Source: Pratylenchus scribneri (Eukaryota; Nematoda; Chromadorea; Rhabditida; Pratylenchidae). Taken from it: 64,000 nt of DNA. The number at the start of each line of letters is the position of its first letter. Positions within the stretch are counted from its first letter, which is position 1. The stretch covers positions 124,001-188,000 of the forward strand of contig JAQSEB010000169.1 in assembly GCA_030063045.1 (NCBI GenBank), read 5' to 3'. The position numbers and the translations under genes were made by a program. The notes under the pieces are model-generated. The model was not told the DNA's origin. It saw only the letters and a program-made list of their open reading frames with translations, and made no database searches. Of the stretch, positions 890 to 59,266 are shown one piece after another.

Positions 890-1035
890 ACGGGCGAGCG
901 AAGCGAGCCTGCACACGACCTAAAGAAGGGCTGGCGAGCGAAGCGAGCCTGCACACGACCTAAAGAAAGCTGGCGAGCGAAGCGAGCCTGCACAGACCTA
1001 AAGAAAAGCTACTGAGCGAAGCGAACCTGCCCACA
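890..1035. repeat. 40-base minisatellite, copy set 1
   Basis: About four copies of a 40-base unit containing GCGAGCGAAGCGAGCCTGCA and then ACGACCTAAAGAA. It is much richer in GC than the surroundings and lies in the 3' part of the first large unit. Confidence 0.85.
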
Positions 1036-2231: not shown

Positions 2232-2430
2232 AAGCCTGCACACGACCTAAAGAAGGGCGGGCGAGCGAAGCGAGCCTGCACACGACCTAAAGAAGAGTGG
2301 GCGAGCCTGCACACGACCTAAAGAAGGGCGGGCGAGCGAAGCGAGCCTGCACACGACCTAAAGAAGAGCGGGCGAGCCTGCAAACGACCTAAAGAAGGGC
2401 TGGCGAGCGAAGCGAGCCTGCTCACGACCT
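2232..2430. repeat. 40-base minisatellite, copy set 2
   Basis: About six copies of the same unit as at 890-1035. Some are shortened by loss of the GAGCGAAGC stretch, for example near 2295-2310. Confidence 0.85.
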
Positions 2431-3372
2431 TTAAATAATTTCAAAATCCGAAACCCTAGGGTAGGTCGAACGCGCCTTGGCGCGTTAACATGAACAGAAG
2501 CCTATAATCCCTCCCGACATCTTACCAAATCCTCCCCACATATTCCTTACACCCACTTCCCTTACGCCCCACTTCCCTAACGTCCACTAGTTATATTCAA
2601 TATAAAAAGCTTTGTCACACGGTTTTGCGGGTAGAATAAGGTTATGGATGAGAGTTGGGAGGTGGGAGTTCGAAAATTATATCCAAAAAGCGTTCGTTTA
2701 GAGAAATTTAAGAGGGTTTGGTTTGAGGTTGAGTTTGGCCAGGTCGTTAGCAGAGGGGCAAAACCGGTTTTTGGACTTAGAATTTGACCCAATTTTTTAC
2801 TTTTTCGTTTATAACTTTTTTGTGTGTGGATTTTTTGAAATGTTTTTTGGCCTATGACCCGCACCCAAGTAGGGGCTTTAAAATGATATATAGCACGTTG
2901 TGGTGCGCGGCTTGGCCTAGGAGGAGTTTGTTAACTTCTATGCGCAAGTCATGATTTGGCCATATCCCGCTCCAGAGCTAAGTCTATAGTGGAAGTGGGA
3001 GTTGGAAGATGAAAATTGGGACTTAGGGGTTTTCAGCCATGGCGAATTCAAATTTGACATCAGTTTTTTGTTCTGCGCAACCAGTGGTTTGCAAACCGGT
3101 TCAGAAAAAGTCAAAAAGTGGAATATGGGTGGATTGAGGTGAAAATTGGGACTTATGGGTTTTCGAATATGGGGAATTCAAAAATAATATTTTTTTGGGA
3201 TCCGCGCGACACGTGGTTTGCAAACCGGTTTAAAATGGAAATTTTTATTGGATTGAGGTGAAAATTGAGATTCTGGGGTTTTCGGGTATGGAGAATTCAG
3301 AAATGATGTTCATTTTATGATCTATGAAAAAGGTGGTTTGCAAACCGGTTCAAAAATTTTTAAAATAGGGAA

Positions 3373-3685
3373 AAAGCGGGCGAGCGAAGCGAGCCTGCAC
3401 ACGACCTAAAGAAGAGCGGGCGAGCGAAGCGAGCCTGCACATGACCTAAAGAAAAGCGGGCGGGCGAAGCGAGCCTGCACACGACCTAAAGAAAAGCGGG
3501 CGAGCGAAGCGAGCCTGCACACGACCTAAAGAAGAGCTGGCGAGCGAAGCGAGCCTGCACACGACCTAAAGAACGGGCGAGCGAAGCGAGCCTGCACGCG
3601 ACCTGGAAAATGCGGGCGAGCGAAGTGAGCCTGCACACGACCTAAAGAAGAGCTGGCGAGCGAAGCGAGCCTGGCCGCGACCGTT
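3373..3685. repeat. 40-base minisatellite, copy set 3
   Basis: The longest of the three sets, with about eight copies. Copy number differs between the three large units, so the minisatellite expands and contracts independently of the large array. Confidence 0.85.
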
Positions 3686-3996
3686 AAATAATTTCAGAAT
3701 CCGAATCCCTAGGGTAGGTCGAACGCGCCTTGGCGCGTTAACATGAACAGAAGGTTGTAATCCGTCCCGACATCTTACCAAATCCTTCCCACATATTCCT
3801 TAAACCCACATCCCTTACGCCCCACTTCCCTTACGTCCACTAGTTTAAAAAAAATAAAAAATTATTAATTAATTTTTTTATCAAAAGAATGAGAATATTT
3901 GGTTTTATTAGATAAATTTTATTTCTTAATTTTTGAAAGTTTTTGTTAGGATTTCGTTTTTTAAAGATTAATAAAATAACAAATGAGGAAACGAAC

Positions 3997-5298
3997 ATGA
4001 ATCCAAGCATTTGTTCCAACACTTCCGATCGGATATCCTCAATTTGGACAATTCCATTCTGCGCTTCGATCATTCCATTATTCTTGAACATTGCCGCAAA
4101 AACTGGAGATTGACATGCCAAAATTCCTTTGTAGACCTTTAAAATTAGGTAAATTTAACTAGAAAATAATAGAATTTAATGGATGTGGACCTTAAATTCC
4201 TTTCCTTCTGCGGCCAAAATGCAGTCTGAATATTGGTCCCCTTGGTCGATCAAATTGCCTATGTTTTCAGAGTATTGCATTCTATAAAATTTAAAAAAAA
4301 TAAAAAAACGCATCACTCTGGAACTTTCAATGTTAACTTATCTATAGCGGAAAAAGAGTGACCCAATTATTAGTTACGATTTGCTCAAATAATGGAAAAA
4401 TATACAGAATAAATGTTTTTAAACGAATTTTTATTAAATTTTAGTGTTTTAAAAATGACGCATTTTTGGTCAAGTAAAAAGGTCACCCCGATAGCGGAGT
4501 GTGTTCAAATTTTTATCCTAATTAGTTCAGAATTCTCTACATTGGAATATTTAAGTCTATTTTTAAACATTTCTACCTATTAATCATGGTCATTTACGCA
4601 AACTTTATTTTAAAGCATGGTCTTTATAAATTAAAAAGACTGATCAATGTCAAATTAATCTGGCAAATTCCCAATAAAATTTTACTTACTCGATGCCATA
4701 TAGGATATTGCCATATGGAATATTTGCATTAATCGCGACGCTGAGAATAATTGAATCGGCTGATTTATTGTACCAATCGGATTCGGGATCCATTAAGTAC
4801 TGTAAATTAAATTAATTTTAAAAAAACTTGCTAATTTCTTTCAAACCAAATTTTTACTTACTTTTAATGCCATGAATCGGAAATAACCGCCTCCATTTTC
4901 TTTTGCATGGAAAACGTGCTGGTATTCACGGACAAAATCCTCCTTTCCTTCCTTTTGGGCCAACAATTTCAAAACAACCAAAGCATGGCAACGCCAATTT
5001 GTGTCTAAATTTCAACTTTTGTAAAAATTCAAAATTAATTTGCCATACCTTCATTTCCTTCATTACATTCTAAGAAAAAGCCGAGACATTTTTGCGGGGA
5101 CATTCCGCGTGGAAAATGGTCAATGGATGGTTTATTTGCGCACATAAAAATTCTCCATGGTAGTCCTCGAACAAAAATTGCTTTACTTTTTTTATCCTGT
5201 TTTTTCTTGGCAAATTCGCTGAACTTCTGTATTTCCATTGTAATAACTCCACTTGATTTATAACAATCATCAGCAGACTGCATTGTTGTATTGGACAT
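3997..5298 (-). pseudogene. MATH-BTB protein gene lacking its 3' exons
   Basis: Five exons join in frame on the minus strand: 5298-5049, 5004-4862, 4799-4690, 4281-4191 and 4136-3997. They give about 244 residues. The first three exons read as a MATH domain (GVITMEIQKFSEFA, GLPWRIFM, then GGGYFRFMALK and DPESDWYNKSADS). The last two read as the start of BTB (QYSDCILAAEGKEFKVYKG, ACQSPVFAAMFKNNG). In this family such proteins usually act as substrate adaptors of cullin-3 ubiquitin ligases. The fifth exon ends on a phase-2 donor (AT|GTTCG), but the expected YTGK, BACK and terminal exons, which the paralogues carry, are not found before the tandem array begins at 3844. Either the gene is truncated by that array, or the missing exons lie beyond the window. 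No in-frame stop interrupts what remains. Confidence 0.8.
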
Positions 5299-10111: not shown

Positions 10112-11453
10112 TCATTCGATAACAGCTTTAAAAATTTGATCGACCAAATCCTCATTGTTTCCTTTCAGCAACATCTTCCAACCTTCCGTTTTAATAACCT
10201 TTTAAAATGTTCAAATTATTATTTAAAAAATAGTTAAAATATTTTTCCAACCATTTTTGCATGCATTTTGATGTATTCAATTGCCATGATTTTGAGATGT
10301 TTTGCGCAATGTTGACTTGCCAAAACCAGCAATTCGCAAGCATTCTCATGGACTAAAGAATCGACCAAAACATTCTCACAAAATTCCTGTGTAATAGTGA
10401 ATATTTGATAAATATTTAAAATATCAATTTTTCTGTGTGGAAGATTCTTAAATAAATAAAGAGCAGTTCAAAAGTAGTCGATTTCTAAATCGGAGTAAAT
10501 GTCCACTAATTGTTTTTTTTCCACATCCCAACATTTTGTGTTTTTGTTTGTCCAAACATCCAAATATTTTTTGTTTTTGTTTCTCAAAATATTTTTTGTT
10601 TTGTTTCTCTAAACATTTTTTGTTTGTCCAAACATCCAAACATTTTTTTGTTTTGTTTCTCCAAACATTTTGTTTTTTCCCCAGCATTAAATAGTTTTTA
10701 TTTTTATAAACAATTTGTTTTTTCAATTTTTAATTTTTCAAAACATTTTTATTTTAAATCAAAAATTTAAATTAGCATTTGCACTTCTTAGAAATTGTCC
10801 TAGTATATTTTTAATATTCGTTTCACCTTCAATCCAATAAGCTCATATTTTTCGGCCGCAATCAGCAAGTCCTCCGCAATGTTTTTTATTTTTAACATTT
10901 CTTTATTCGGTTCCTTCCCTGTGTATCTAAAAATAGAAAGTGGATATTTTTATTAGTTCAAAAAATTATAAAATAAAAAAAACCAACATGAAACGAAGCA
11001 TTTGTTCCAAAACTTCCGATTTGATGTCGACGATTTGGACAATTCCATTCTGTGCTTCGATCATTTGATTGTTCTGGAACATTGCCGCAAAAACTGGAGA
11101 TTGACATGCCAAAATGCCCTTGTAGACCTTTAAATTAAATTGAATTAAGATATAAAATTAGTAATTGAGGACCTTAAATTCCTTTCCTTCTACGGCCAAA
11201 ATGCAATCTGAATATTGCTCTCCTTGGTCGAACAAATTGCCCATGTTTTCAGAAGCGGCAAGAATATTTTTATTTGTGGGGATTTCTAAAATTTGCATTA
11301 TTATTTTTTTGGGGACTGGAGGGGGAATAAACTTTCACCTTTTCGCATTATTTTTGGTTTGGTGCTAGATGTTGAAATGGCTGCCTCATAGTACAGTGGT
11401 GGCACAGAGAAGAGGCTATTTCCAAATGGTTGTGGAGCACCGAATAAAGACAT
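10112..11453 (-). CDS. BTB-domain protein without a MATH domain, apparently complete
   Basis: Six exons join without a break: 11453-11339, 11285-11173, 11127-10988, 10926-10827, 10386-10252 and 10198-10112. They make 229 residues ending in TGA. Residues 1-45 are an unusual lead (MSLFGAPQPFGNSLFSVPPL and onward, ending PTNKN). BTB follows (QYSDCILAVEGKEFKVYKG, ACQSPVFAAMFQNNQ, MLRFIYTGKEPNKE, AEDLLIAAEKYELIGLK), then a short BACK-like segment (ENACELLVLASQHCAKHL) and VIKTEGWKMLLKGNNEDLVD. The likely role is oligomerisation and cullin-3 binding. Without MATH, any substrate choice must lie elsewhere. Related copies at 3997-5298 and 8009-8766 show a tandemly duplicated family. Intron 4 (10826-10387) contains a satellite-like array at 10510-10690. 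Donors after exon 2 begin GTCC, which is weak but shared with the paralogue. Confidence 0.82.
10510..10690 (-). repeat. Short degenerate array related to the giant satellite, in BTB intron 4
   Basis: Read on the gene's sense (minus) strand, this region repeats AAAATGTTTGGAGAAACAAA, ATGTTTGGATG and ACACAAAATGTTGGGATG, about six to eight degenerate copies. These match the units of the 41.58-58.96 kb satellite, especially its degenerate left edge (41580-41770). The array lies in the intron after ..KYELIGLK. Confidence 0.8.
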
Positions 11454-33245: not shown

Positions 33246-33309
33246 AAATTTCACCCTTTTAAAACCCGTTTATTATCCATCCAAATATTCATTTTTCGAT
33301 CACTTTTCA

Positions 33310-33640
33310 TTCCTCCAGTTCTGATTCTAATAATTCCGCCTTTTCTGATTTTAATAATTCCGCCTGTTCTCATTCTAATAATTCCGCCTGTTCTGATTTT
33401 ATAATTCCTCCTTTTCTGATTTTAATAATTCCGCCTGTTCTGATTTTATAATTCCTCCTGTTCTGATTTTTATTACCGCTTGTTCTGATTTTAATAATTC
33501 CGCCTTTTCTAATTTTATAATTCCGCCTGTTCTGATTTTAATTATTCCGCCTGTTCTGATTTTTATTTCCGCCTTTTCTGATTTTAATAATTCCGCCTGT
33601 TCTGATTTTATAATTCCGCCTGTTCTAATTTTTAAATTCC
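33310..33640. repeat. 24-base minisatellite, about 14 copies
   Basis: Units of TTCTGATTTTAATAATTCCG followed by CCTG, with 21-26 base variants. On the plus strand it encodes a short repetitive frame (ILIIPPVL), judged to be a by-product. Confidence 0.85.
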
Positions 33641-40060: not shown

Positions 40061-43000
40061 ATGACCCAAAACAACGATAATGACATTTCCGGCAAAATTC
40101 GCATCAAAACTTGTTTGAAAGAATTGGAGGATGAAGAGGGCGGACCAAAGCCGGTGTCGTCTACCATCCATCAAATTGGCGGACTTTCTTGGTTAATAAT
40201 TTGTTTAATTAAAAAAATTTAAAAATAGATGTCAAATAGTCAAATAATAACATTTACCAAATTTTTAGGGTTAAGTGGCATTTTATTATCGGTAAATTAT
40301 CGATCGGGTTCCATTTTTGGCGAAAGCTTAATAACTTGTTACTTTTGATCTCCGACTCAAAGCTTATTTGATAGAACTCATCGAGACGCATTAATTTGCA
40401 TATAGGCTATTGAGGTTTGGCTCACAACTAAAAGAGTTGTAAACCAAAATATAGTCTAAACGGTTTAATACTTTGAATTTTGGCCAAAACAAACAATACA
40501 GCAATCGAAGGATCTCGATGAGCTCTCTCAAATGGTATAATTAAGCATAAACAATTTTTTGGGTTAATCGATTCTTGTGTAAACTTTTAATTATATAGGA
40601 AAGTTAGCATTTCTTAAATTATTCCATTCCAAAATGCAAAATCCAATAATAGAATCTCTCTCTTACAGGCGAATGGAGGTGGAAAAAGCGTCATCTGAAT
40701 CGGAGGGCTATTTGAATTTGAAAGTGTGTTGCAATGAAGAAGTGAAGGACACCCTTTGGCTTTGCAAAGTGGATTTCTCGGTGCGCAGTGGATATGCCGA
40801 AGACCCAGACACCGAGGAGTCATTTTTGTTCGGTCCTTCCTGCGGATTCAACACAAATTATTGGATTCTGAATAATATTTTCGATGTGGGCACAAAGGAG
40901 GATTACTCGGATGATGAAGAGGATTGGCTTGCGGATCAAATCGATATCAAATTGAACATCAAAATTACGCGCATTCAGAAATGGTGAGTTATTGAATAGA
41001 ATTTGAATTTAAAAACATTTAAATTCTAGGCTTCCACCGTTTGACACAATCTTGATGATGAAAATTGGCGAATATCGAACGGAATCATTTTCCATCAATA
41101 AACATGTATATTTTATTTTTCAATAATTTACATTTTAATCTAAAATTTTCTCTCCCAGTCGTTGGCCTCCTTTTCCAACTATTTTCACAATTTGTTTTTC
41201 GGCGATTGGATCGACAATAGACGGGGAGTGGGCAATGGCAATTCTTTTGAAATTGTGGAAACCGAGGATTTTGATGTGCATGCATTCGAATTAATGGTTT
41301 ATTCGATAATGTCAATGGGTGCAATGATGCATGAGTCCAATTTTCTGGAAGGCAACGGTAATTCAAATAATAAATATTTAAATGCCATAATCGATTGTAT
41401 TCAGGCCAAGTGGCCATCAAAATCCTGAAATTATCAATCAAATATGACATGGCCATTTTGTTCGACTATTGCGAAAATGTTTTGATGGAGTGCGAAGATG
41501 GGCCAAAATTGGAGTTGCTCGAATTGGCGGAACAGTGCTCACTCAACAATCTCAAGGTCAGTGGTTAAAAACACCAAATTTTTTAGGAAACAAAAACATA
41601 AAAATGTTGGGAGAAATAAAAACACAAAATGTTTGGGAAAAAATGTTTGGATGAACAAAAACACAACAATGTTTGGAGGAATAAAAACAAAGTGTTTGGA
41701 GGATAAAAACACAATATTTGGGAAAACGAAAACATAAAATGTTGGGAAAAACACAAAATGTTTGAGGCAACAAAAAACATAAAAATGTTTGGGGCAACAA
41801 AAACATAAAAATGTTTGGGGCAGCAAAAAAAAATGTTTGGAGCAACAAAAACAAAATGTTTGGGGCAGCAAAAACAAAATGTTTGGAGCAACAAAAACAA
41901 AATGTTTGGGGCAACAAAAACAAAATGTTTGGGGCAACAAAAAACATAAAAATGTTTGGGGCAACAAAAACATAAAAATGTTTGGGGCAGCAAAAACAAA
42001 ATGTTTGGAGCAACAAAAATAAAATGTTTGGGGCAGCAAAAACAAAATGTTTGGAGCAACAAAAACAAAATGTTTGGGGCAACAAAAAACATAAAAATGT
42101 TTGGGGCAACAAAAAACATAAAAATGTTTGGGGCAACAAAAACATAAAAATGTTTGGATGAACAAAAACAACAATGTTTGGAGGAATAAAAACAAAATGT
42201 TTGGGGCAACAAAAACAAAATGTTTGGGGCAACAAAAACAAAATGTTTGGAGCAACAAAAACAAAATGTTTGGAGCAACAAAAACAAAATGTTTGGGGCA
42301 ACAAAAACAAAATGTTTGGGGCAACAAAAACAAAATGTTTGGGGCAACAAAAACATAAAAATGTTTGGGGCAACAAAAACAAAATGTTTGGAGCAACAAA
42401 AATAAAATGTTTGGGGCAGCAAAAACAAAATGTTTGGAGCAACAAAAATAAAATGTTTGGGGCAGCAAAAACAAAATGTTTGGAGCAACAAAAACAAAAT
42501 GTTTGGGGCAACAAAAAACATAAAAATGTTTGGGGCAACAAAAAACATAAAAATGTTTGGGGCAACAAAAACATAAAAATGTTTGGATGAACAAAAACAA
42601 CAATGTTTGGAGGAATAAAAACAAAATGTTTGGGGCAACAAAAACAAAATGTTTGGGGCAACAAAAACAAAATGTTTGGAGCAACAAAAACAAAATGTTT
42701 GGAGCAACAAAAACAAAATGTTTGGGGCAACAAAAACAAAATGTTTGGGGCAACAAAAAACATAAAAATGTTTGGGGCAACAAAAACATAAAAATGTTTG
42801 GGGCAGCAAAAACAAAATGTTTGGAGCAACAAAAATAAAATGTTTGGGGCAGCAAAAACAAAATGTTTGGAGCAACAAAAACAAAATGTTTGGGGCAACA
42901 AAAAACATAAAAATGTTTGGGGCAACAAAAAACATAAAAATGTTTGGGGCAACAAAAACATAAAAATGTTTGGATGAACAAAAACACAACAATGTTTGGA

Positions 43001-46000
43001 GGAATAAAAACAAAATGTTTGGGGCAACAAAAACAAAATGTTTGGGGCAACAAAAACAAAATGTTTGGAGCAACAAAAACAAAATGTTTGGAGCAACAAA
43101 AACAAAATGTTTGGGGCAACAAAAACAAAATGTTTGGGGCAACAAAAACAAAATGTTTGGGGCAACAAAAACAAAATGTTTGGGGCAGCGAAAATAAAAT
43201 GTTTGGGGCAACAAAAACATAAAAATGTTTGGGGCAGCAAAAACAAAATGTTTGGGGCAGCAAAAACAAAATGTTTGGAGCAACAAAAACAAAATGTTTG
43301 GGACAGCAAAAACAAAATGTTTGGAGCAACAAAAACAAAATGTTTGGGGCAACAAAAAACATAAAAATGTTTGGTACAACAAAAAACATAAAAATGTTTG
43401 GGGCAACAAAAACATAAAAATGTTTGGGGCAACAAAAACATAAAAATGTTTGGGGCAACAAAAACAAAATGTTTGGAGCAACAAAAACAAAATGTTTGGG
43501 GCAACAAAAACAAAATGTTTGGAGCAACAAAAACAAAATGTTTGGAGCAACAAAAACAAAATGTTTGGGGCAACAAAAACAAAATGTTTGGGGCAACAAA
43601 AACAAAATATTTGGGGCAGCGAAAATAAAATGTTTGGGGCAACAAAAACAAAATGTTTGGGGCAACAAAAAACATAAAAATGTTTGGGGCAACAAAAAAC
43701 ATAAAAATGTTTGGGGCAACAAAAACATAAAAATGTTTGGATGAACAAAAACAACAATGTTTGGAGGAATAAAAACAAAATGTTTGGGGCAACAAAAACA
43801 AAATGTTTGGGGCAACAAAAACAAAATGTTTGGAGCAACAAAAACAAAATGTTTGGAGCAACAAAAACAAAATGTTTGGGGCAACAAAAACAAAATGTTT
43901 GGGGCAACAAAAAACATAAAAATGTTTGGGGCAACAAAAACATAAAAATGTTTGGGGCAGCAAAAACAAAATGTTTGGAGCAACAAAAATAAAATGTTTG
44001 GGGCAGCAAAAACAAAATGTTTGGAGCAACAAAAACAAAATGTTTGGGGCAACAAAAAACATAAAAATGTTTGGGGCAACAAAAAACATAAAAATGTTTG
44101 GGGCAACAAAAACATAAAAATGTTTGGATGAACAAAAACACAACAATGTTTGGAGGAATAAAAACAAAATGTTTGGGGCAACAAAAACAAAATGTTTGGG
44201 GCAACAAAAACAAAATGTTTGGAGCAACAAAAACAAAATGTTTGGAGCAACAAAAACAAAATGTTTGGGGCAACAAAAACAAAATGTTTGGGGCAACAAA
44301 AACAAAATGTTTGGGGCAGCAAAAACAAAATGTTTGGAGCAACAAAAACAAAATGTTTGGGGCAACAAAAACAAAATGTTTGGGGCAACAAAAAACATAA
44401 AAATGTTTGGGGCAACAAAAACATAAAAATGTTTGGGGCAGCAAAAACAAAATGTTTGGAGCAACAAAAATAAAATGTTTGGGGCAGCAAAAACAAAATG
44501 TTTGGAGCAACAAAAACAAAATGTTTGGGGCAACAAAAAACATAAAAATGTTTGGGGCAACAAAAAACATAAAAATGTTTGGGGCAACAAAAACATAAAA
44601 ATGTTTGGATGAACAAAAACAACAATGTTTGGAGGAATAAAAACAAAATGTTTGGGGCAACAAAAACAAAATGTTTGGGGCAACAAAAACAAAATGTTTG
44701 GAGCAACAAAAACAAAATGTTTGGAGCAACAAAAACAAAATGTTTGGGGCAACAAAAACAAAATGTTTGGGGCAACAAAAACAAAATGTTTGGGGCAACA
44801 AAAACATAAAAATGTTTGGGGCAACAAAAACAAAATGTTTGGAGCAACAAAAATAAAATGTTTGGGGCAGCAAAAACAAAATGTTTGAAGCAACAAAAAT
44901 AAAATGTTTGGGGCAGCAAAAACAAAATGTTTGGAGCAACAAAAACAAAATGTTTGGGGCAACAAAAAACATAAAAATGTTTGGGGCAACAAAAAACATA
45001 AAAATGTTTGGGGCAACAAAAACATAAAAATGTTTGGATGAACAAAAACAACAATGTTTGGAGGAATAAAAACAAAATGTTTGGGGCAACAAAAACAAAA
45101 TGTTTGGGGCAACAAAAACAAAATGTTTGGAGCAACAAAAACAAAATGTTTGGAGCAACAAAAACAAAATGTTTGGGGCAACAAAAACAAAATGTTTGGG
45201 GCAACAAAAAACATAAAAATGTTTGGGGCAACAAAAACAAAATGTTTGGGGCAGCAAAAACAAAATGTTTCGGGCAGCAAAAACAAAATGTTTGGAGCAA
45301 CAAAAAACATAAAAATGTTTGGGGCAACAAAAAACATAAAAATGTTTGGGGCAACAAAAACATAAAAATGTTTGGATGAACAAAAACAACAATGTTTGGA
45401 GGAATAAAAACAAAATGTTTGGGGCAACAAAAACAAAATGTTTGGGGCAACAAAAACAAAATGTTTGGAGCAACAAAAACAAAATGTTTGGAGCAACAAA
45501 AATAAAATGTTTGGGGCAGCAAAAACAAAATGTTTGGAGCAACAAAAACAAAATGTTTGGGGCAACAAAAACAAAATGTTTGGGGCAACAAAAAACATAA
45601 AAATGTTTGGGGCAACAAAAACATAAAAATGTTTGGGGCAGCAAAAACAAAATGTTTGGAGCAACAAAAATAAAATGTTTGGGGCAGCAAAAACAAAATG
45701 TTTGGAGCAACAAAAACAAAATGTTTGGGGCAACAAAAACAAAATGTTTGGGGCAACAAAAAACATAAAAATGTTTGGGGCAACAAAAACAAAATGTTTG
45801 GGGCAGCAAAAACAAAATGTTTCGGGCAGCAAAAACAAAATGTTTGGAGCAACAAAAAACATAAAAATGTTTGGGGCAACAAAAAACATAAAAATGTTTG
45901 GGGCAACAAAAACATAAAAATGTTTGGATGAACAAAAACAACAATGTTTGGAGGAATAAAAACAAAATGTTTGGGGCAACAAAAACAAAATGTTTGGGGC

Positions 46001-49000
46001 AACAAAAACAAAATGTTTGGAGCAACAAAAACAAAATGTTTGGAGCAACAAAAACAAAATGTTTGGGGCAACAAAAACAAAATGTTTGGGGCAACAAAAA
46101 ACATAAAAATGTTTGGGGCAACAAAAACATAAAAATGTTTGGGGCAGCAAAAACAAAATGTTTGGAGCAACAAAAATAAAATGTTTGGGGCAGCAAAAAC
46201 AAAATGTTTGGAGCAACAAAAACAAAATGTTTGGGGCAACAAAAAACATAAAAATGTTTGGGGCAACAAAAAACATAAAAATGTTTGGGGCAACAAAAAC
46301 ATAAAAATGTTTGGATGAACAAAAACACAACAATGTTTGGAGGAATAAAAACAAAATGTTTGGGGCAACAAAAACAAAATGTTTGGGGCAACAAAAACAA
46401 AATGTTTGGAGCAACAAAAACAAAATGTTTGGAGCAACAAAAACAAAATGTTTGGGGCAACAAAAACAAAATGTTTGGGGCAACAAAAACAAAATGTTTG
46501 GGGCAGCAAAAACAAAATGTTTGGAGCAACAAAAACAAAATGTTTGGGGCAACAAAAACAAAATGTTTGGGGCAACAAAAAACATAAAAATGTTTGGGGC
46601 AACAAAAACATAAAAATGTTTGGGGCAGCAAAAACAAAATGTTTGGAGCAACAAAAATAAAATGTTTGGGGCAGCAAAAACAAAATGTTTGGAGCAACAA
46701 AAACAAAATGTTTGGGGCAACAAAAACAAAATGTTTGGAGCAACAAAAACAAAATGTTTGGAGCAACAAAAACAAAATGTTTGGGGCAACAAAAACAAAA
46801 TGTTTGGGGCAACAAAAACAAAATGTTTGGGGCAACAAAAACAAAATGTTTGGGGCAACAAAAACAAAATGTTTGGAGCAACAAAAACAAAATGTTTGGA
46901 GCAACAAAAACAAAATGTTTGGGGCAACAAAAACAAAATGTTTGGGGCAACAAAAACAAAATGTTTGGGGCAACAAAAACATAAAAATGTTTGGGGCAAC
47001 AAAAACAAAATGTTTGGATGAACAAAAACAACAATGTTTGGAGGAATAAAAACAAAATGTTTGGGGCAACAAAAACAAAATGTTTGGGGCAACAAAAACA
47101 AAATGTTTGGAGCAACAAAAACAAAATGTTTGGAGCAACAAAAACAAAATGTTTGGGGCAACAAAAACAAAATGTTTGGGGCAACAAAAAACATAAAAAT
47201 GTTTGGGGCAACAAAAACATAAAAATGTTTGGATGAACAAAAACAACAATGTTTGGAGGAATAAAAACAAAATGTTTGGGGCAACAAAAACAAAATGTTT
47301 GGGGCAACAAAAACAAAATGTTTGGAGCAACAAAAACAAAATGTTTGGAGCAACAAAAACAAAATGTTTGGGGCAACAAAAACAAAATGTTTGGGGCAAC
47401 AAAAAACATAAAAATGTTTGGGGCAACAAAAACATAAAAATGTTTGGGGCAACAAAAACAAAATGTTTGGGGCAACAAAAACAAAATGTTTGGAGCAACA
47501 AAAACAAAATGTTTGGAGCAACAAAAACAAAATGTTTGGGGCAACAAAAACAAAATGTTTGGGGCAACAAAAACAAAATGTTTGGGGCAACAAAAACATA
47601 AAAATGTTTGGGGCAACAAAAACAAAATGTTTGGGGCAACAAAAACAAAATGTTTGGGGCAGCAAAAACAAAATGTTTGGAGCAACAAAAACAAAATGTT
47701 TGGGGCAACAAAAACAAAATGTTTGGGGCAACAAAAAACATAAAAATGTTTGGGGCAACAAAAACATAAAAATGTTTGGGGCAGCAAAAACAAAATGTTT
47801 GGAGCAACAAAAATAAAATGTTTGGGGCAGCAAAAACAAAATGTTTGGAGCAACAAAAACAAAATGTTTGGGGCAACAAAAAACATAAAAATGTTTGGGG
47901 CAACAAAAAACATAAAAATGTTTGGGGCAACAAAAACATAAAAATGTTTGGATGAACAAAAACAACAATGTTTGGAGGAATAAAAACAAAATGTTTGGGG
48001 CAACAAAAACAAAATGTTTGGGGCAACAAAAACAAAATGTTTGGAGCAACAAAAACAAAATGTTTGGAGCAACAAAAACAAAATGTTTGGGGCAACAAAA
48101 ACAAAATGTTTGGGGCAACAAAAACAAAATGTTTGGGGCAACAAAAACAAAATGTTTGGGGCAACAAAAACAAAATGTTTGGAGCAACAAAAACAAAATG
48201 TTTGGAGCAACAAAAACAAAATGTTTGGGGCAACAAAAACAAAATGTTTGGGGCAACAAAAACAAAATGTTTGGGGCAACAAAAACATAAAAATGTTTGG
48301 GGCAACAAAAACAAAATGTTTGGAGCAACAAAAATAAAATGTTTGGGGCAGCAAAAACAAAATGTTTGGAGCAACAAAAATAAAATGTTTGGGGCAGCAA
48401 AAACAAAATGTTTGGAGCAACAAAAACAAAATGTTTGGGGCAACAAAAAACATAAAAATGTTTGGGGCAACAAAAAACATAAAAATGTTTGGGGCAACAA
48501 AAACATAAAAATGTTTGGATGAACAAAAACAACAATGTTTGGAGGAATAAAAACAAAATGTTTGGGGCAACAAAAACAAAATGTTTGGGGCAACAAAAAC
48601 AAAATGTTTGGAGCAACAAAAACAAAATGTTTGGAGCAACAAAAACAAAATGTTTGGGGCAACAAAAACAAAATGTTTGGGGCAACAAAAAACATAAAAA
48701 TGTTTGGGGCAACAAAAACATAAAAATGTTTGGGGCAGCAAAAACAAAATGTTTGGAGCAACAAAAATAAAATGTTTGGGGCAGCAAAAACAAAATGTTT
48801 GGAGCAACAAAAACAAAATGTTTGGGGCAACAAAAAACATAAAAATGTTTGGGGCAACAAAAAACATAAAAATGTTTGGGGCAACAAAAACATAAAAATG
48901 TTTGGATGAACAAAAACACAACAATGTTTGGAGGAATAAAAACAAAATGTTTGGGGCAACAAAAACAAAATGTTTGGGGCAACAAAAACAAAATGTTTGG

Positions 49001-52000
49001 AGCAACAAAAACAAAATGTTTGGAGCAACAAAAACAAAATGTTTGGGGCAACAAAAACAAAATGTTTGGGGCAACAAAAACAAAATGTTTGGGGCAGCAA
49101 AAACAAAATGTTTGGAGCAACAAAAACAAAATGTTTGGGGCAACAAAAACAAAATGTTTGGGGCAACAAAAAACATAAAAATGTTTGGGGCAACAAAAAC
49201 ATAAAAATGTTTGGGGCAGCAAAAACAAAATGTTTGGAGCAACAAAAATAAAATGTTTGGGGCAGCAAAAACAAAATGTTTGGAGCAACAAAAACAAAAT
49301 GTTTGGGGCAACAAAAAACATAAAAATGTTTGGGGCAACAAAAAACATAAAAATGTTTGGGGCAACAAAAACATAAAAATGTTTGGATGAACAAAAACAA
49401 CAATGTTTGGAGGAATAAAAACAAAATGTTTGGGGCAACAAAAACAAAATGTTTGGGGCAACAAAAACAAAATGTTTGGAGCAACAAAAACAAAATGTTT
49501 GGAGCAACAAAAACAAAATGTTTGGGGCAACAAAAACAAAATGTTTGGGGCAACAAAAACAAAATGTTTGGGGCAACAAAAACATAAAAATGTTTGGGGC
49601 AACAAAAACAAAATGTTTGGAGCAACAAAAATAAAATGTTTGGGGCAGCAAAAACAAAATGTTTGGAGCAACAAAAATAAAATGTTTGGGGCAGCAAAAA
49701 CAAAATGTTTGGAGCAACAAAAACAAAATGTTTGGGGCAACAAAAAACATAAAAATGTTTGGGGCAACAAAAAACATAAAAATGTTTGGGGCAACAAAAA
49801 CATAAAAATGTTTGGATGAACAAAAACAACAATGTTTGGAGGAATAAAAACAAAATGTTTGGGGCAACAAAAACAAAATGTTTGGGGCAACAAAAACAAA
49901 ATGTTTGGAGCAACAAAAACAAAATGTTTGGAGCAACAAAAACAAAATGTTTGGGGCAACAAAAACAAAATGTTTGGGGCAACAAAAAACATAAAAATGT
50001 TTGGGGCAACAAAAACATAAAAATGTTTGGGGCAGCAAAAACAAAATGTTTGGAGCAACAAAAATAAAATGTTTGGGGCAGCAAAAACAAAATGTTTGGA
50101 GCAACAAAAACAAAATGTTTGGGGCAACAAAAAACATAAAAATGTTTGGGGCAACAAAAAACATAAAAATGTTTGGGGCAACAAAAACATAAAAATGTTT
50201 GGATGAACAAAAACACAACAATGTTTGGAGGAATAAAAACAAAATGTTTGGGGCAACAAAAACAAAATGTTTGGGGCAACAAAAACAAAATGTTTGGAGC
50301 AACAAAAACAAAATGTTTGGAGCAACAAAAACAAAATGTTTGGGGCAACAAAAACAAAATGTTTGGGGCAACAAAAACAAAATGTTTGGGGCAGCAAAAA
50401 CAAAATGTTTGGAGCAACAAAAACAAAATGTTTGGGGCAACAAAAACAAAATGTTTGGGGCAACAAAAAACATAAAAATGTTTGGGGCAACAAAAACATA
50501 AAAATGTTTGGGGCAGCAAAAACAAAATGTTTGGAGCAACAAAAATAAAATGTTTGGGGCAGCAAAAACAAAATGTTTGGAGCAACAAAAACAAAATGTT
50601 TGGGGCAACAAAAAACATAAAAATGTTTGGGGCAACAAAAAACATAAAAATGTTTGGGGCAACAAAAACATAAAAATGTTTGGATGAACAAAAACAACAA
50701 TGTTTGGAGGAATAAAAACAAAATGTTTGGGGCAACAAAAACAAAATGTTTGGGGCAACAAAAACAAAATGTTTGGAGCAACAAAAACAAAATGTTTGGA
50801 GCAACAAAAACAAAATGTTTGGGGCAACAAAAACAAAATGTTTGGGGCAACAAAAACAAAATGTTTGGGGCAACAAAAACATAAAAATGTTTGGGGCAAC
50901 AAAAACAAAATGTTTGGAGCAACAAAAATAAAATGTTTGGGGCAGCAAAAACAAAATGTTTGGAGCAACAAAAATAAAATGTTTGGGGCAGCAAAAACAA
51001 AATGTTTGGAGCAACAAAAACAAAATGTTTGGGGCAACAAAAAACATAAAAATGTTTGGGGCAACAAAAAACATAAAAATGTTTGGGGCAACAAAAACAT
51101 AAAAATGTTTGGATGAACAAAAACAACAATGTTTGGAGGAATAAAAACAAAATGTTTGGGGCAACAAAAACAAAATGTTTGGGGCAACAAAAACAAAATG
51201 TTTGGAGCAACAAAAACAAAATGTTTGGAGCAACAAAAACAAAATGTTTGGGGCAACAAAAACAAAATGTTTGGGGCAACAAAAAACATAAAAATGTTTG
51301 GGGCAACAAAAACATAAAAATGTTTGGGGCAGCAAAAACAAAATGTTTGGAGCAACAAAAATAAAATGTTTGGGGCAGCAAAAACAAAATGTTTGGAGCA
51401 ACAAAAACAAAATGTTTGGGGCAACAAAAAACATAAAAATGTTTGGGGCAACAAAAAACATAAAAATGTTTGGGGCAACAAAAACATAAAAATGTTTGGA
51501 TGAACAAAAACACAACAATGTTTGGAGGAATAAAAACAAAATGTTTGGGGCAACAAAAACAAAATGTTTGGGGCAACAAAAACAAAATGTTTGGAGCAAC
51601 AAAAACAAAATGTTTGGAGCAACAAAAACAAAATGTTTGGGGCAACAAAAACAAAATGTTTGGGGCAACAAAAACAAAATGTTTGGGGCAACAAAAACAA
51701 AATGTTTGGGGCAACAAAAACAAAATGTTTGGGGCAACAAAAAACATAAAAATGTTTGGGGCAACAAAAACATAAAAATGTTTGGGGCAACAAAAACATA
51801 AAAATGTTTGGGGCAACAAAAACAAAATGTTTGGGGCAACAAAAACAAAATGTTTGGAGCAACAAAAACAAAATGTTTGGGGCAACAAAAACAAAATGTT
51901 TGGGGCAACAAAAACAAAATGTTTGGGGCAACAAAAACAAAATGTTTGGAGCAACAAAAACAAAATGTTTGGAGCAACAAAAACAAAATGTTTGGGGCAA

Positions 52001-55000
52001 CAAAAACAAAATATTTGGGGCAGCGAAAATAAAATGTTTGGGGCAACAAAAACAAAATGTTTGGGGCAGCAAAAACAAAATGTTTCGGGCAGCAAAAACA
52101 AAATGTTTGGAGCAACAAAAACAAAATGTTTGGGGCAGCAAAAACAAAATGTTTGGAGCAACAAAAACAAAATGTTTGAGGCAACAAAAAACATAAAAAT
52201 GTTTGGGGCAACAAAAACATAAAAATGTTTGGGGCAGCAAAAACAAAATGTTTGGAGCAACAAAAACAAAATGTTTGGGGCAGCAAAAACAAAATGTTTG
52301 GAGCAACAAAAACAAAATGTTTGGGGCAAAAAAAACAAAATGTTTGGGGCAACAAAAAACATAAAAATGTTTGGGGCAACAAAAACATAAAAATGTTTGG
52401 GGCAACAAAAACATAAAAATGTTTGGGGCAGCAAAAACAAAATGTTTGGAGCAACAAAAATAAAATGTTTGGGGCAGCAAAAACAAAATGTTTGGAGCAA
52501 CAAAAACAAAATGTTTGGGGCAACAAAAAACATAAAAATGTTTGGGGCAACAAAAAACATAAAAATGTTTGGGGCAACAAAAACATAAAAATGTTTGGAT
52601 GAACAAAAACACAACAATGTTTGGAGGAATAAAAACAAAATGTTTGGGGCAACAAAAACAAAATGTTTGGAGCAACAAAAACAAAATGTTTGGAGCAACA
52701 AAAACAAAATGTTTGGGGCAACAAAAACAAAATGTTTGGGGCAACAAAAACAAAATGTTTGGGGCAACAAAAACAAAATGTTTGGGGCAACAAAAAACAT
52801 AAAAATGTTTGGGGCAACAAAAACATAAAAATGTTTGGGGCAACAAAAACAAAATGTTTGGAGCAACAAAAACAAAATGTTTGGAGCAACAAAAACAAAA
52901 TGTTTGGGGCAACAAAAACAAAATGTTTGGGGCAACAAAAAAAAATGTTTGGGGCAACAAAAACAAAATGTTTGGAGCAACAAAAACAAAATGTTTGGAG
53001 CAACAAAAACAAAATGTTTGGGGCAACAAAAACAAAATGTTTGCAAAAACAAAATATTTTGGGCAGCGAAAATAAAATGTTTGGGGCAACAAAAACAAAA
53101 TGTTTGGGGCAGCAAAAACAAAATGTTTGGGGCAGCAAAAACAAAATGTTTGGAGCAACAAAAACAAAATGTTTGGGACAGCAAAAACAAAATGTTTGGA
53201 GCAACAAAAACAAAATGTTTGGGGCAACAAAAAACATAAAAATGTTTGGTACAACAAAAAACATAAAAATGTTTGGGGCAACAAAAACATAAAAATGTTT
53301 GGGGCAACAAAAACATAAAAATGTTTGGGGCAACAAAAACAAAATGTTTGGAGCAACAAAAACAAAATGTTTGGGGCAACAAAAACAAAATGTTTGGAGC
53401 AACAAAAACAAAATGTTTGGAGCAACAAAAACAAAATGTTTGGGGCAACAAAAACAAAATGTTTGGGGCAACAAAAACAAAATATTTGGGGCAGCGAAAA
53501 TAAAATGTTTGGGGCAACAAAAACAAAATGTTTGGGGCAACAAAAAACATAAAAATGTTTGGGGCAACAAAAAACATAAAAATGTTTGGGGCAACAAAAA
53601 CATAAAAATGTTTGGATGAACAAAAACAACAATGTTTGGAGGAATAAAAACAAAATGTTTGGGGCAACAAAAACAAAATGTTTGGGGCAACAAAAACAAA
53701 ATGTTTGGAGCAACAAAAACAAAATGTTTGGAGCAACAAAAACAAAATGTTTGGGGCAACAAAAACAAAATGTTTGGGGCAACAAAAAACATAAAAATGT
53801 TTGGGGCAACAAAAACATAAAAATGTTTGGGGCAGCAAAAACAAAATGTTTGGAGCAACAAAAATAAAATGTTTGGGGCAGCAAAAACAAAATGTTTGGA
53901 GCAACAAAAACAAAATGTTTGGGGCAACAAAAAACATAAAAATGATTGGGGCAACAAAAAACATAAAAATGTTTGGGGCAACAAAAACATAAAAATGTTT
54001 GGATGAACAAAAACACAACAATGTTTGGAGGAATAAAAACAAAATGTTTGGGGCAACAAAAACAAAATGTTTGGGGCAACAAAAACAAAATGTTTGGAGC
54101 AACAAAAACAAAATGTTTGGAGCAACAAAAACAAAATGTTTGGGGCAACAAAAACAAAATGTTTGGGGCAACAAAAACAAAATGTTTGGGGCAACAAAAA
54201 CAAAATGTTTGGGGCAACAAAAACAAAATGTTTGGGGCAACAAAAAACATAAAAATGTTTGGGGCAACAAAAACATAAAAATGTTTGGGGCAACAAAAAC
54301 ATAAAAATGTTTGGGGCAACAAAAACAAAATGTTTGGGGCAACAAAAACAAAATGTTTGGAGCAACAAAAACAAAATGTTTGGGGCAACAAAAACAAAAT
54401 GTTTGGGGCAACAAAAACAAAATGTTTGGGGCAACAAAAACAAAATGTTTGGAGCAACAAAAACAAAATGTTTGGAGCAACAAAAACAAAATGTTTGGGG
54501 CAACAAAAACAAAATATTTGGGGCAGCGAAAATAAAATGTTTGGGGCAACAAAAACAAAATGTTTGGGGCAGCAAAAACAAAATGTTTCGGGCAGCAAAA
54601 ACAAAATGTTTGGAGCAACAAAAACAAAATGTTTGGGGCAGCAAAAACAAAATGTTTGGAGCAACAAAAACAAAATGTTTGAGGCAACAAAAAACATAAA
54701 AATGTTTGGGGCAACAAAAACATAAAAATGTTTGGGGCAGCAAAAACAAAATGTTTGGAGCAACAAAAACAAAATGTTTGGGGCAGCAAAAACAAAATGT
54801 TTGGAGCAACAAAAACAAAATGTTTGGGGCAAAAAAAACAAAATGTTTGGGGCAACAAAAAACATAAAAATGTTTGGGGCAACAAAAACATAAAAATGTT
54901 TGGGGCAACAAAAACATAAAAATGTTTGGGGCAGCAAAAACAAAATGTTTGGAGCAACAAAAATAAAATGTTTGGGGCAGCAAAAACAAAATGTTTGGAG

Positions 55001-58000
55001 CAACAAAAACAAAATGTTTGGGGCAACAAAAAACATAAAAATGTTTGGGGCAACAAAAAACATAAAAATGTTTGGGGCAACAAAAACATAAAAATGTTTG
55101 GATGAACAAAAACACAACAATGTTTGGAGGAATAAAAACAAAATGTTTGGGGCAACAAAAACAAAATGTTTGGAGCAACAAAAACAAAATGTTTGGAGCA
55201 ACAAAAACAAAATGTTTGGGGCAACAAAAACAAAATGTTTGGGGCAACAAAAACAAAATGTTTGGGGCAACAAAAACAAAATGTTTGGGGCAACAAAAAA
55301 CATAAAAATGTTTGGGGCAACAAAAACATAAAAATGTTTGGGGCAACAAAAACAAAATGTTTGGAGCAACAAAAACAAAATGTTTGGAGCAACAAAAACA
55401 AAATGTTTGGGGCAACAAAAACAAAATGTTTGGGGCAACAAAAACAAAATGTTTGGGGCAACAAAAACAAAATGTTTGGAGCAACAAAAACAAAATGTTT
55501 GGAGCAACAAAAACAAAATGTTTGGGGCAACAAAAACAAAATGTTTGGGGCAACAAAAACAAAATATTTGGGGCAGCGAAAATAAAATGTTTGGGGCAAC
55601 AAAAACAAAATGTTTGGGGCAGCAAAAACAAAATGTTTGGGGCAGCAAAAACAAAATGTTTGGAGCAACAAAAACAAAATGTTTGGGACAGCAAAAACAA
55701 AATGTTTGGAGCAACAAAAACAAAATGTTTGGGGCAACAAAAACAAAATGTTTGGGGCAACAAAAACAAAATGTTTGGGGCAACAAAAAACATAAAAATG
55801 TTTGGGGCAACAAAAACATAAAAATGTTTGGGGCAACAAAAACAAAATGTTTGGAGCAACAAAAACAAAATGTTTGGAGCAACAAAAACAAAATGTTTGG
55901 GGCAACAAAAACAAAATGTTTGGGGCAACAAAAACAAAATGTTTGGGGCAACAAAAACAAAATGTTTGGAGCAACAAAAACAAAATGTTTGGAGCAACAA
56001 AAACAAAATGTTTGGGGCAACAAAAACAAAATGTTTGGGGCAACAAAAACAAAATATTTGGGGCAGCGAAAATAAAATGTTTGGGGCAACAAAAACAAAA
56101 TGTTTGGGGCAGCAAAAACAAAATGTTTGGGGCAGCAAAAACAAAATGTTTGGAGCAACAAAAACAAAATGTTTGGGACAGCAAAAACAAAATGTTTGGA
56201 GCAACAAAAACAAAATGTTTGGGGCAACAAAAAACATAAAAATGTTTGGGGCAACAAAAACATAAAAATGTTTGGATGAACAAAAACAACAATGTTTGGA
56301 GGAATAAAAACAAAATGTTTGGGGCAACAAAAACAAAATGTTTGGGGCAACAAAAACAAAATGTTTGGAGCAACAAAAACAAAATGTTTGGAGCAACAAA
56401 AACAAAATGTTTGGGGCAACAAAAACAAAATGTTTGGGGCAACAAAAAACATAAAAATGTTTGGGGCAACAAAAACAAAATGTTTGGAGCAACAAAAACA
56501 AAATGTTTGGGGCAACAAAAACAAAATGTTTGGGGCAACAAAAAACATAAAAATGTTTGGGGCAACAAAAACATAAAAATGTTTGGGGCAGCAAAAACAA
56601 AATGTTTGGAGCAACAAAAATAAAATGTTTGGGGCAGCAAAAACAAAATGTTTGGAGCAACAAAAACAAAATGTTTGGGGCAACAAAAAACATAAAAATG
56701 TTTGGGGCAACAAAAAACATAAAAATGTTTGGGGCAACAAAAACATAAAAATGTTTGGATGAACAAAAACACAACAATGTTTGGAGGAATAAAAACAAAA
56801 TGTTTGGGGCAACAAAAACAAAATGTTTGGGGCAACAAAAACAAAATGTTTGGAGCAACAAAAACAAAATGTTTGGAGCAACAAAAACAAAATGTTTGGG
56901 GCAACAAAAACAAAATGTTTGGGGCAACAAAAACAAAATGTTTGGGGCAACAAAAACAAAATGTTTGGGGCAACAAAAACAAAATGTTTGGGGCAACAAA
57001 AAACATAAAAATGTTTGGGGCAACAAAAACATAAAAATGTTTGGGGCAACAAAAACATAAAAATGTTTGGGGCAACAAAAACAAAATGTTTGGGGCAACA
57101 AAAACAAAATGTTTGGAGCAACAAAAACAAAATGTTTGGGGCAACAAAAACAAAATGTTTGGGGCAACAAAAACAAAATGTTTGGGGCAACAAAAACAAA
57201 ATGTTTGGAGCAACAAAAACAAAATGTTTGGAGCAACAAAAACAAAATGTTTGGGGCAACAAAAACAAAATATTTGGGGCAGCGAAAATAAAATGTTTGG
57301 GGCAACAAAAACAAAATGTTTGGGGCAGCAAAAACAAAATGTTTCGGGCAGCAAAAACAAAATGTTTGGAGCAACAAAAACAAAATGTTTGGGGCAGCAA
57401 AAACAAAATGTTTGGAGCAACAAAAACAAAATGTTTGAGGCAACAAAAAACATAAAAATGTTTGGGGCAACAAAAACATAAAAATGTTTGGGGCAGCAAA
57501 AACAAAATGTTTGGAGCAACAAAAACAAAATGTTTGGGGCAGCAAAAACAAAATGTTTGGAGCAACAAAAACAAAATGTTTGGGGCAAAAAAAACAAAAT
57601 GTTTGGGGCAACAAAAAACATAAAAATGTTTGGGGCAACAAAAACATAAAAATGTTTGGGGCAACAAAAACATAAAAATGTTTGGGGCAGCAAAAACAAA
57701 ATGTTTGGAGCAACAAAAATAAAATGTTTGGGGCAGCAAAAACAAAATGTTTGGAGCAACAAAAACAAAATGTTTGGGGCAACAAAAAACATAAAAATGT
57801 TTGGGGCAACAAAAAACATAAAAATGTTTGGGGCAACAAAAACATAAAAATGTTTGGATGAACAAAAACACAACAATGTTTGGAGGAATAAAAACAAAAT
57901 GTTTGGGGCAACAAAAACAAAATGTTTGGAGCAACAAAAACAAAATGTTTGGAGCAACAAAAACAAAATGTTTGGGGCAACAAAAACAAAATGTTTGGGG

Positions 58001-59266
58001 CAACAAAAACAAAATGTTTGGGGCAACAAAAACAAAATGTTTGGGGCAACAAAAAACATAAAAATGTTTGGGGCAACAAAAACATAAAAATGTTTGGGGC
58101 AACAAAAACAAAATGTTTGGAGCAACAAAAACAAAATGTTTGGAGCAACAAAAACAAAATGTTTGGGGCAACAAAAACAAAATGTTTGGGGCAACAAAAA
58201 CAAAATGTTTGGGGCAACAAAAACAAAATGTTTGGAGCAACAAAAACAAAATGTTTGGAGCAACAAAAACAAAATGTTTGGGGCAACAAAAACAAAATGT
58301 TTGGGGCAACAAAAACAAAATATTTGGGGCAGCGAAAATAAAATGTTTGGGGCAACAAAAACAAAATGTTTGGGGCAGCAAAAACAAAATGTTTGGGGCA
58401 GCAAAAACAAAATGTTTGGAGCAACAAAAACAAAATGTTTGGGACAGCAAAAACAAAATGTTTGGAGCAACAAAAACAAAATGTTTGGGGCAACAAAAAA
58501 CATAAAAATGTTTGGTACAACAAAAAACATAAAAATGTTTGGGGCAACAAAAACATAAAAATGTTTGGGGCAACAAAAACATAAAAATGTTTGGGGCAAC
58601 AAAAACAAAATGTTTGGAGCAACAAAAACAAAATGTTTGGGGCAACAAAAACAAAATGTTTGGAGCAACAAAAACAAAATGTTTGGAGCAACAAAAACAA
58701 AATGTTTGGGGCAACAAAAACAAAATGTTTGGGGCAACAAAAACAAAATATTTGGGGCAGCGAAAATAAAATGTTTGGGGCAACAAAAACAAAATGTTTG
58801 GGGCAGCAAAAACAAAATGTTTGGGGCAGCAAAAACAAAATATTTGGGGCAACAAAAACAAAATATTTGGGGCAACAAAAACAAAATATTTGGGGCAACA
58901 AAAACAAAATGTTTTTTAAGGAAAAAAATGAAATGTTTTTTAAGGAAAAAAATGAAAAATATTTAGAAAAAACAAAAATATTAAGGAGTTCAATTATTAA
59001 TCCTAATTGATTATTATTTAAAGGATCGTTGTCTGAATCGTTTGAGCATCAAAGACTTGACCAAGGATTTTGCCAAGACCAATGACATTTATTCTCGTCT
59101 TTCCAAAAATACCCAAGAGCGGCTGGATGCCATTTTGGCGGAAAAGACCAATGTGATGCGCAATTCCCTGGAGAAAATGGATGATGCAGTTCGTTCAAAA
59201 AAGCCACGGCTTTCTTCTATGGCTGATCAAATTGACAAAATGAAGGAAATTTTGGGACACAAATAA
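40061..59266 (+). CDS. MATH-BTB protein gene with a 17.5 kb satellite-filled intron
   Basis: Exons 40061-40191, 40669-40983, 41030-41105, 41159-41357, 41405-41556 and 59024-59266 join in frame for 371 residues ending in TAA. Residues 1-170 form a MATH-like domain (HQIGGLSWRMEVEKA, YLNLKVCCNEEV, CGFNTNYWILNN). BTB follows (TESFSINKHSLASFSNYFHN, then EIVETEDFDVHAFELMVYSI), then helices like BACK (QVAIKILKLSIKYDMAILFD, KLELLELAEQCSLNNLK). The C-terminal exon is predicted helical (TKDFAKTNDIYSRLSKNTQE). The likely role is a cullin-3 substrate adaptor. The last intron, 41557-59023 (17,467 bases), is phase 0 with a normal donor GTCAGT and acceptor TTTAAAG. An AATAAA lies at 59382. The gene is divergent from the BTB cluster at 4-11 kb but shares intron position there. 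Splicing of such an intron needs RNA evidence. Confidence 0.88.
40265..40560. repeat. R1 fold-back element in intron 1 of the MATH-BTB gene
   Basis: Left arm has TAGAACTCATCGAGACGCAT. Right arm has GGATCTCGATGAGCTCTCTC. The middle has TAAACGGTTTAATACTTTGA. Confidence 0.7.
41580..58960 (+). repeat. Giant intronic satellite, 23-27 base unit, about 700 copies
   Basis: The main unit is 23 bases, AAAATGTTTGGGGCAAC then AAAAAC. 26-27 base variants carry CATAAAA. Common point variants are GGGGCAGC, GGAGCAAC, AAAATAAAATG, GGGACAGC and GCGAAAATAAAA. A rarer pair (GGATGAACAAAAAC with GGAGGAATAAAAAC) marks higher-order copies. The left edge (41580-41770) and right edge (58840-58960, units with ATATTTGGGG and then TTTTTTAAGG) are the most diverged, as expected of an array homogenised in its centre. 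The minus strand lacks stops in all three frames, giving frames of about 5,770 codons that repeat every 23 residues (FVFVAPNILFLLPQTFCFC and so on). The period is not a multiple of three and there is no independent sign of coding, so I read it as non-coding. Confidence 0.95.

Follow-up and report, generated by a model that had tools for sequence, protein, structure and literature searches.

An expanded minisatellite array in intron 5 of a BTB gene of Pratylenchus scribneri, with shorter arrays in the same intron of paralogues

Intron 5 of a BTB gene in the nematode Pratylenchus scribneri consists almost entirely of one minisatellite array, and shorter arrays of the same repeat family lie in the same intron of several paralogues. 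We think it likely that an old intronic minisatellite, whose unit became shorter, was amplified in place and is probably spliced out as inert sequence. The case is known in kind, being an expanded intronic minisatellite, but it is larger than usual and has an informative history in the sister genes. The window, meaning the whole stretch of 64,000 bases that was analysed, corresponds to C169:124001-188000, and the genome searched comprises 227,248,964 bases in 276 contigs.

The gene lies on the plus strand, and its six exons form a spliced frame of 371 codons plus stop (Table 1). Introns 1 to 5 measure 477, 46, 53, 47 and 17,467 bases, are all of the GT-AG type and keep the frame. Intron 5 starts with GTCAGT, ends with TTTAAAG and is in phase 0 on both sides. 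The first-pass annotation had given this intron as 41557-59023, with flanking exons that join in frame, and described all other introns as short; the coordinates are right, and the remaining four introns are 46-477 bases long. Exon 6 is an open frame over 80 codons with an acceptor and a stop, and an AATAAA is found past it at 59382.

Table 1. Positions, in window coordinates, of the gene parts and of the subdivisions of intron 5
Feature	Positions	Strand	Description	Basis
Exon 1	40061..40191	+	Coding, ATG start; first part of weak MATH match (residues 32-82)	Spliced frame, Pfam, paralogue exon matches
Exon 2	40669..40983	+	Remainder of weak MATH match	Spliced frame, Pfam, paralogue exon matches
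Exon 3	41030..41105	+	BTB match (residues 158-267) begins	Spliced frame, Pfam, paralogue exon matches
Exon 4	41159..41357	+	BTB	Spliced frame, Pfam, paralogue exon matches
Exon 5	41405..41556	+	BTB end and start of BACK-like match (residues 278-317); donor AAG/GTCAGT	Spliced frame, Pfam, paralogues
Intron 5	41557..59023	+	17,467 bases	Spliced frame; same intron in paralogues
Left intron edge and degenerate first units	41557..41639	+	Common to paralogues C27, C68	Identity of first 100 bases
Tandem array	41640..58914	+	Unit 22-27 bases, mostly 23; about 720 copies; sense strand A-/G-rich	
Longest exact internal repeat	48120..51690	+	Two overlapping 2,274-base copies, starts 48120 and 49417, lag 1,297	
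Right intron edge beyond main array	58915..59023	+	Acceptor TATTTAAAG/GATC	
Exon 6	59024..59266	+	Final 80 codons and stop; residues 292-317 of BACK-like match	Spliced frame, Pfam, paralogues

The predicted protein passes the Pfam cut-off for BTB (PF00651; 23.6 bits versus 20.5), so the BTB part of the earlier MATH-BTB label stands; for its MATH part there is a match below the cut-off (17.5 versus 21.2 bits). The BACK match (PF24570) is also below its cut-off, with 20.2 versus 27.4 bits. In the three paralogue proteins scanned against Pfam, BTB passes in all three, BACK is below the cut-off in all three and MATH is listed in none; counted together with the window protein, PF00651 is above and PF24570 below the cut-off in four out of four proteins. 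A search for protein relatives outside the P. scribneri genome gave 1,411 word-sharing candidates, none of which reached E 0.001 or better, and no match to the window protein was found among the sequences of solved structures up to E 1.

Tandem Repeats Finder reports a single array at 41640-58914 with a period of 23, 723 copies and 91% matches, which makes up 17.3 kb of the 17,467-base intron 5. Cutting the array at the core yields 720 monomers of 26 types, of which 518 are 23 bases long, 91 are 27, 89 are 26, 17 are 24 and 3 are 22, and the remaining two are fused; less regular units extend leftward to about 41567-41600. The unbroken satellite of roughly 700 copies reported earlier is thus one array of about 720 units of 22-27 bases. 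The exact 23-mer has 332 + 37 occurrences in the genome and none in the reversed-read control, which is far beyond chance. Intronic minisatellites have units of 7-180 bases repeated head to tail between two exons of one gene; the period of 23 bases falls in this range, and splice phase together with the intron position in paralogues places the array between what are predicted to be two exons of a single gene.

The sense strand of the array has a GC content of 0.32, a GC skew of 0.25 and an AT skew of 0.46. None of six splice-site-like patterns was found on either strand of the array. For five of the six, shuffles gave an expectation of at most about three occurrences, GTRNGT being the exception (23.6 times sense and 37.2 antisense), and a low-complexity repeat that lacks splice-like words counts as a single event and not as thousands. 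Word counts in the array generally represent few words repeated many times and not many independent facts. On the minus strand, all three frames of window 41539-59048 are open for 5,785-5,821 codons because TTA, CTA and TCA are absent from the array; we regard this as a by-product of composition, and three simultaneously open frames speak against minus-strand coding.

The two ends of the array differ. The first nine units are degenerate, with 0.61-0.88 identity to the consensus, and most 60-unit blocks of the interior are homogeneous with a mean identity of 0.92-0.94; at the right end identity does not fall off gradually, and only the last unit is poor. Of the array, 83.5% lies within exact repeats of 500 bases or longer, 65% within those of 1,000 or longer and 21% within those of 2,000 or longer.

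Ultra-low-input HiFi workflows include PCR amplification. According to the passages on sequencing in the P. scribneri genome paper (PMC10138993), the assembly reads are ultra-low-input HiFi reads from 500 worms with a mean length of 7 kb, of which those below 5 kb were removed first. The array length rests on this assembly, and reads of such a mean length do not usually span 17 kb. Such a library is what would make the length an artefact of assembly or amplification, which we judge improbable: the longest exact internal repeat, with 2,274 bases, is shorter than the reads of at least 5 kb kept for assembly, and the 26 monomer types make positions within the array distinguishable.

We searched the genome with the protein; of 199 candidates 110 were scored, and these gave 125 matches, which indicates that the family is larger than the 22 paralogues read besides the window gene. 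These 22 come from 20 regions; L038 and the beginning of L029 each hold a partial copy that was excluded. The position of intron 5 and its flanking exon pair recur in the paralogues. In 7 out of the 22, this intron holds an array that belongs to the same repeat family and runs in the same direction, with approximate unit counts of 28 in C27, 53 in C68, 57 in C173, 60 in C21a, 34 in C194b, 5 in C194c and 10 in C60a. C194a and C21c each have a one-unit relic, whose local alignment beats all 100 shuffles in either case. With our approximate matcher, no repeat unit was found in the exon 5-6 intron of the other 13 paralogues, and in C4, C33, C41c, C71 and C10 this intron is only 42-47 bases long. 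About half of the longer exon 5-6 intron of C21b and C60b, the second gene copies in L027 and L033, consists of a different, GATGAAGA-rich repeat.

The first 100 bases of the left intron edge are 0.93 identical to the window in C27, 0.88 in C68 and 0.67 in C173. A protein tree built from 21 of the 23 copies groups the window gene with C27, C68 and C173 in one clade (support 1.0) and C21a, C60a, C194b and C194c in another (0.97), which is not sister to the window clade. As the array-bearing paralogues are not one clade, gain or loss of the repeat in this intron may have recurred. From these sequences, the repeat would either predate both clades and have been lost several times, or have arrived more than once. 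At the other side of the intron, window 58959-59160, which covers the right intron edge and the start of exon 6, has a divergence of 0.24 to both C27 and C173, and the 600 alignment columns that follow only 0.08-0.15.

Since the exon pair and the intron position recur in paralogues, a gene transcribed to its end must transcribe and remove the repeat. Splicing from 41556 to 59024 is predicted from this paralogue structure. The earlier proposal that the cell transcribes and splices across the repeat therefore holds as far as one gene with a nearly all-satellite intron is concerned, and the crossing itself is conditional on transcription to the end.

Not all copies have the full exon set. C68 has exons 1-5 and the array, and its exon 6 is absent among the contig matches listed and in the 8 kb fetched; in C21d, exon 6 was not found in the fetched region either. 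Both cases would fit a gene that has come apart, in which exons 1-5 and exon 6 of the window copy have ceased to work as a single gene, the former ending in the array and exon 6 being a leftover. On the window branch, polarised by C27 and C173, exon 6 has 10 amino-acid-changing and 4 silent codons, which points the same way (exons 1-5 have 14 and 6), but the exon 6 counts are too few to prove selection. We give a broken gene little credence, as exon 6 has kept its open frame over 80 codons, its acceptor and stop and its splice phase, and its dN/dS to C27 is 0.23, with 0.53 for exons 1-5.

In C68 (L020, about 4583-5146), a second satellite with a unit of about 25 bases (AATTCTGATTTTTGTG...) adjoins the first array at the place where exon 6 is expected. 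TTCTGATTTT is also found in an array of the window at 33309-33640.

The unit form distinguishes the window array from the others. Out of 422 genome copies of the junction word of the 23-base form, 420 are in the window array and the remaining two at C45 and C138. For the 25-base form, a junction word counted 50 times genome-wide is missing from the window array and is present three times in the C27 intron. The best periods of the 22 other arrays measured are 25-28 and their spans 110-1,888 bases. The privacy of the junction word implies that the 23-base form gained its copies within this intron, which is also its most likely place of origin. The family as a whole is dispersed: a 20-base unit pattern with up to 3 mismatches has 8,884 forward and 7,373 reverse matches in the genome, and 10 and 21 in the reversed control. 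Among the matches listed, the family extends over 5.2 kb at C38:250783-255981 and over at least 5.5 kb at C48:964307-969834; the window array is the longest among the arrays examined, which does not prove it the longest of the genome. Elsewhere in the window, a small array at 10526-10678 belongs to the family but is oppositely oriented. The arrays at window positions 1-3700 are built from a unit of roughly 131 bases and from one of roughly 40 bases (GCGAGCGAAGCGAGCCTGCACACGACC).

Taken in order, a short minisatellite would have been present in intron 5 before several members of the gene family diverged. The shorter 23-base unit would then have arisen in the window copy, as the 25-base form found elsewhere suggests, and would have been amplified in place, both by single units and by segments tens of monomers long. 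The exact duplications point to replication slippage and unequal exchange as the probable means, and the expansion appears to be recent. The array would probably be removed with the intron and tolerated as inert sequence, and we assign no function to it.

Exchange between paralogues offers a different role for the array, namely as a junction at which the last exon is swapped or removed. Signs of it come from C27. Its exons 1-5 are nearest to the window gene (dS 0.139, compared with 0.277 to C173) and its exon 6 is nearest to C173 (dS 0.132, compared with 0.343 to the window gene), and the intron edges follow the same split, with the left edge matching the window (0.93, versus 0.68 for C173) and the right edge C173 (0.88, versus 0.74 for the window). 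Informative sites of this trio differ between exons 1-5 and exon 6 (Fisher p 0.0007), a second trio, C21a-C194b-C60a, has a similar switch (p 0.003), and C68 is homologous to C27 only up to the point at which its array gives way to another satellite. These p values are uncorrected, since the trios were picked after the distances had been seen; the other Fisher comparison of each trio does not reach significance (0.78 and 0.096), and nothing is seen in the control trio C21b-C60b-C21a (0.77 and 0.18). Moreover, switches of kinship also occur in exons 3-4, in intron 1 and upstream, and mosaicism of exon 6 is also found without the repeat, for example between C41b and C10 in raw distances. Similar mosaicism in repeat-free paralogues weakens the case for the repeat as the cause of exon swapping, and we consider exchange at the array an unlikely explanation; the repeat may be one exchange junction among many.

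A further alternative is that the array acts as a switch between isoforms. The full protein would come from transcripts that run through the array, a truncated BTB protein lacking exon 6 from those that end or are cut inside it, and the ratio of the two would depend on array length. Reading on past exon 5 without splicing adds, after codon 291, only V-S-G before a stop, exon 6 carries residues 292-317 of the BACK-like match at 278-317, and C68 has exons 1-5 and an array but no exon 6 match in the sequence covered. AATAAA occurs 69 times in the array versus 25 expected in first-order shuffles, but these sites stem from few amplified monomer types and so are not independent, and C68 may simply be a damaged copy. 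There is in our judgement only a small chance that the array works in this way. It is even less probable that array length is an evolving dial, in which an AATAAA-dense sense repeat free of the splice-like patterns tried shifts transcripts from the full protein toward one cut off within the BACK-like match, with settings that have become fixed differently among paralogues. If true, these settings would run from no array, in an intron of 42-47 bases, by way of the 17 kb here, to a missing last exon in C68.

Returning to the repeat as a probably inert part of the intron, its presence inside a gene is not peculiar to this locus. The first-pass annotation had seen a satellite out of its usual place, and this does not hold for P. 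scribneri, where the family occurs in apparent introns of several unrelated genes. Outside the BTB family it is seemingly intronic at 9 out of 15 loci read (L039-L053), a sample that is not random, as it was taken by exact or rare unit variants with 6 of 16 rare-variant loci fetched. The repeat looks intronic and sense in L040, L042, L044, L045, L046, L048 and L053, intronic and antisense in L047 and L049, sense and beside or between genes in L039, L041 and L050, and unclear or intergenic in L043, L051 and L052. For L044, L045, L049 and L053, the host has Pfam support from one side of the array or both; other hosts were recognised by a home-made coding model, by paralogue matches (L040, L042) or by eye (L046 partly, L047). 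L053 has an Srt-type receptor gene as host (2.3e-16 on one side, and 0.054, below the cut-off, on the other), L044 an F-box-associated gene (FBA, 7.4e-13, one side) and L045 a zinc-finger gene (PF13465, 2.4e-11, one side). L040 and L042 are a pair of paralogues whose exons correspond on either side of the array.

We also considered whether the repeat is always sense to its host. With the BTB family counted once and L040/L042 once, there are 7 sense and 2 antisense host genes, which is not a significant excess (two-sided binomial about 0.18), and the idea was rejected. The sense orientation is common to all 7 array-bearing BTB paralogues, which are of common descent and not independent.

The periodic An/Tn clusters (PATCs) of C. 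elegans have a period near 10 bases. In the array, the periodicity power between 9.5 and 10.6 bases does not exceed 14.7 times the median, beside 616 times at 23.93 and 1,285 times at 24.03 bases, and we rejected a PATC-like function on this weak signal near 10 bases. What the array has in common with PATCs, as described in the passages cited here, is A/T-rich, repeat-like DNA, and PATCs can act from introns (PMC9071541, PMC7725773). Nematodes are rich in short-unit tandem repeats according to parts of the same literature (review Nematode chromosomes, PMC9071541; Caenorhabditis satellite families, PMC4595182), and tandem tracts in C. elegans are reported to reach 50 kb (PMC9071541), so that size alone is not without parallel in nematodes. 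Those passages on minisatellites describe no single tract-filled intron or its history in paralogues (PMC9071541, PMC4595182).

Slippage and unequal crossing-over are said to act on internal tandem repeats in recently duplicated human genes (De Grassi and Ciccarelli 2009, PMC2812944). As far as the excerpts of that study go, these human repeats resemble the present one in having units of about 30 bases and copy numbers that vary between close paralogues, but they average about 160 bases and were chosen in exons or exon-intron boundaries (PMC2812944), whereas the array here is 17.3 kb and wholly intronic. The Drosophila Y genes kl-3, kl-5 and ORY are likewise described, in sections of PMC6508621, as protein-coding genes with satellite introns, which are transcribed across if the gene is expressed; such expression is said to need the RNA-binding proteins Blanks and Heph (PMC6508621). 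Their introns contain megabases of satellite in male-germline genes (PMC6508621), whereas ours contains 17 kb. At 17,467 bases, intron 5 is far from the hundreds of kilobases to megabases of a gigantic intron of the Drosophila type. In the literature, with partial coverage of matching papers, we found nothing on this array or on intronic satellites of Pratylenchus, and the terms 'satellite' and 'intron' have no occurrences in the available main text of the P. scribneri genome paper (PMC10138993).

Within one genome, the same intron thus comes with 0, 1, 5, 10, 28, 34, 53, 57, 60 and about 720 units (approximate counts). This series makes the effect of repeat length on transcription, splicing and the choice of the 3' end testable with ordinary RNA data. 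The locus-private unit would moreover make the expansion datable once the same intron is read in sister species.
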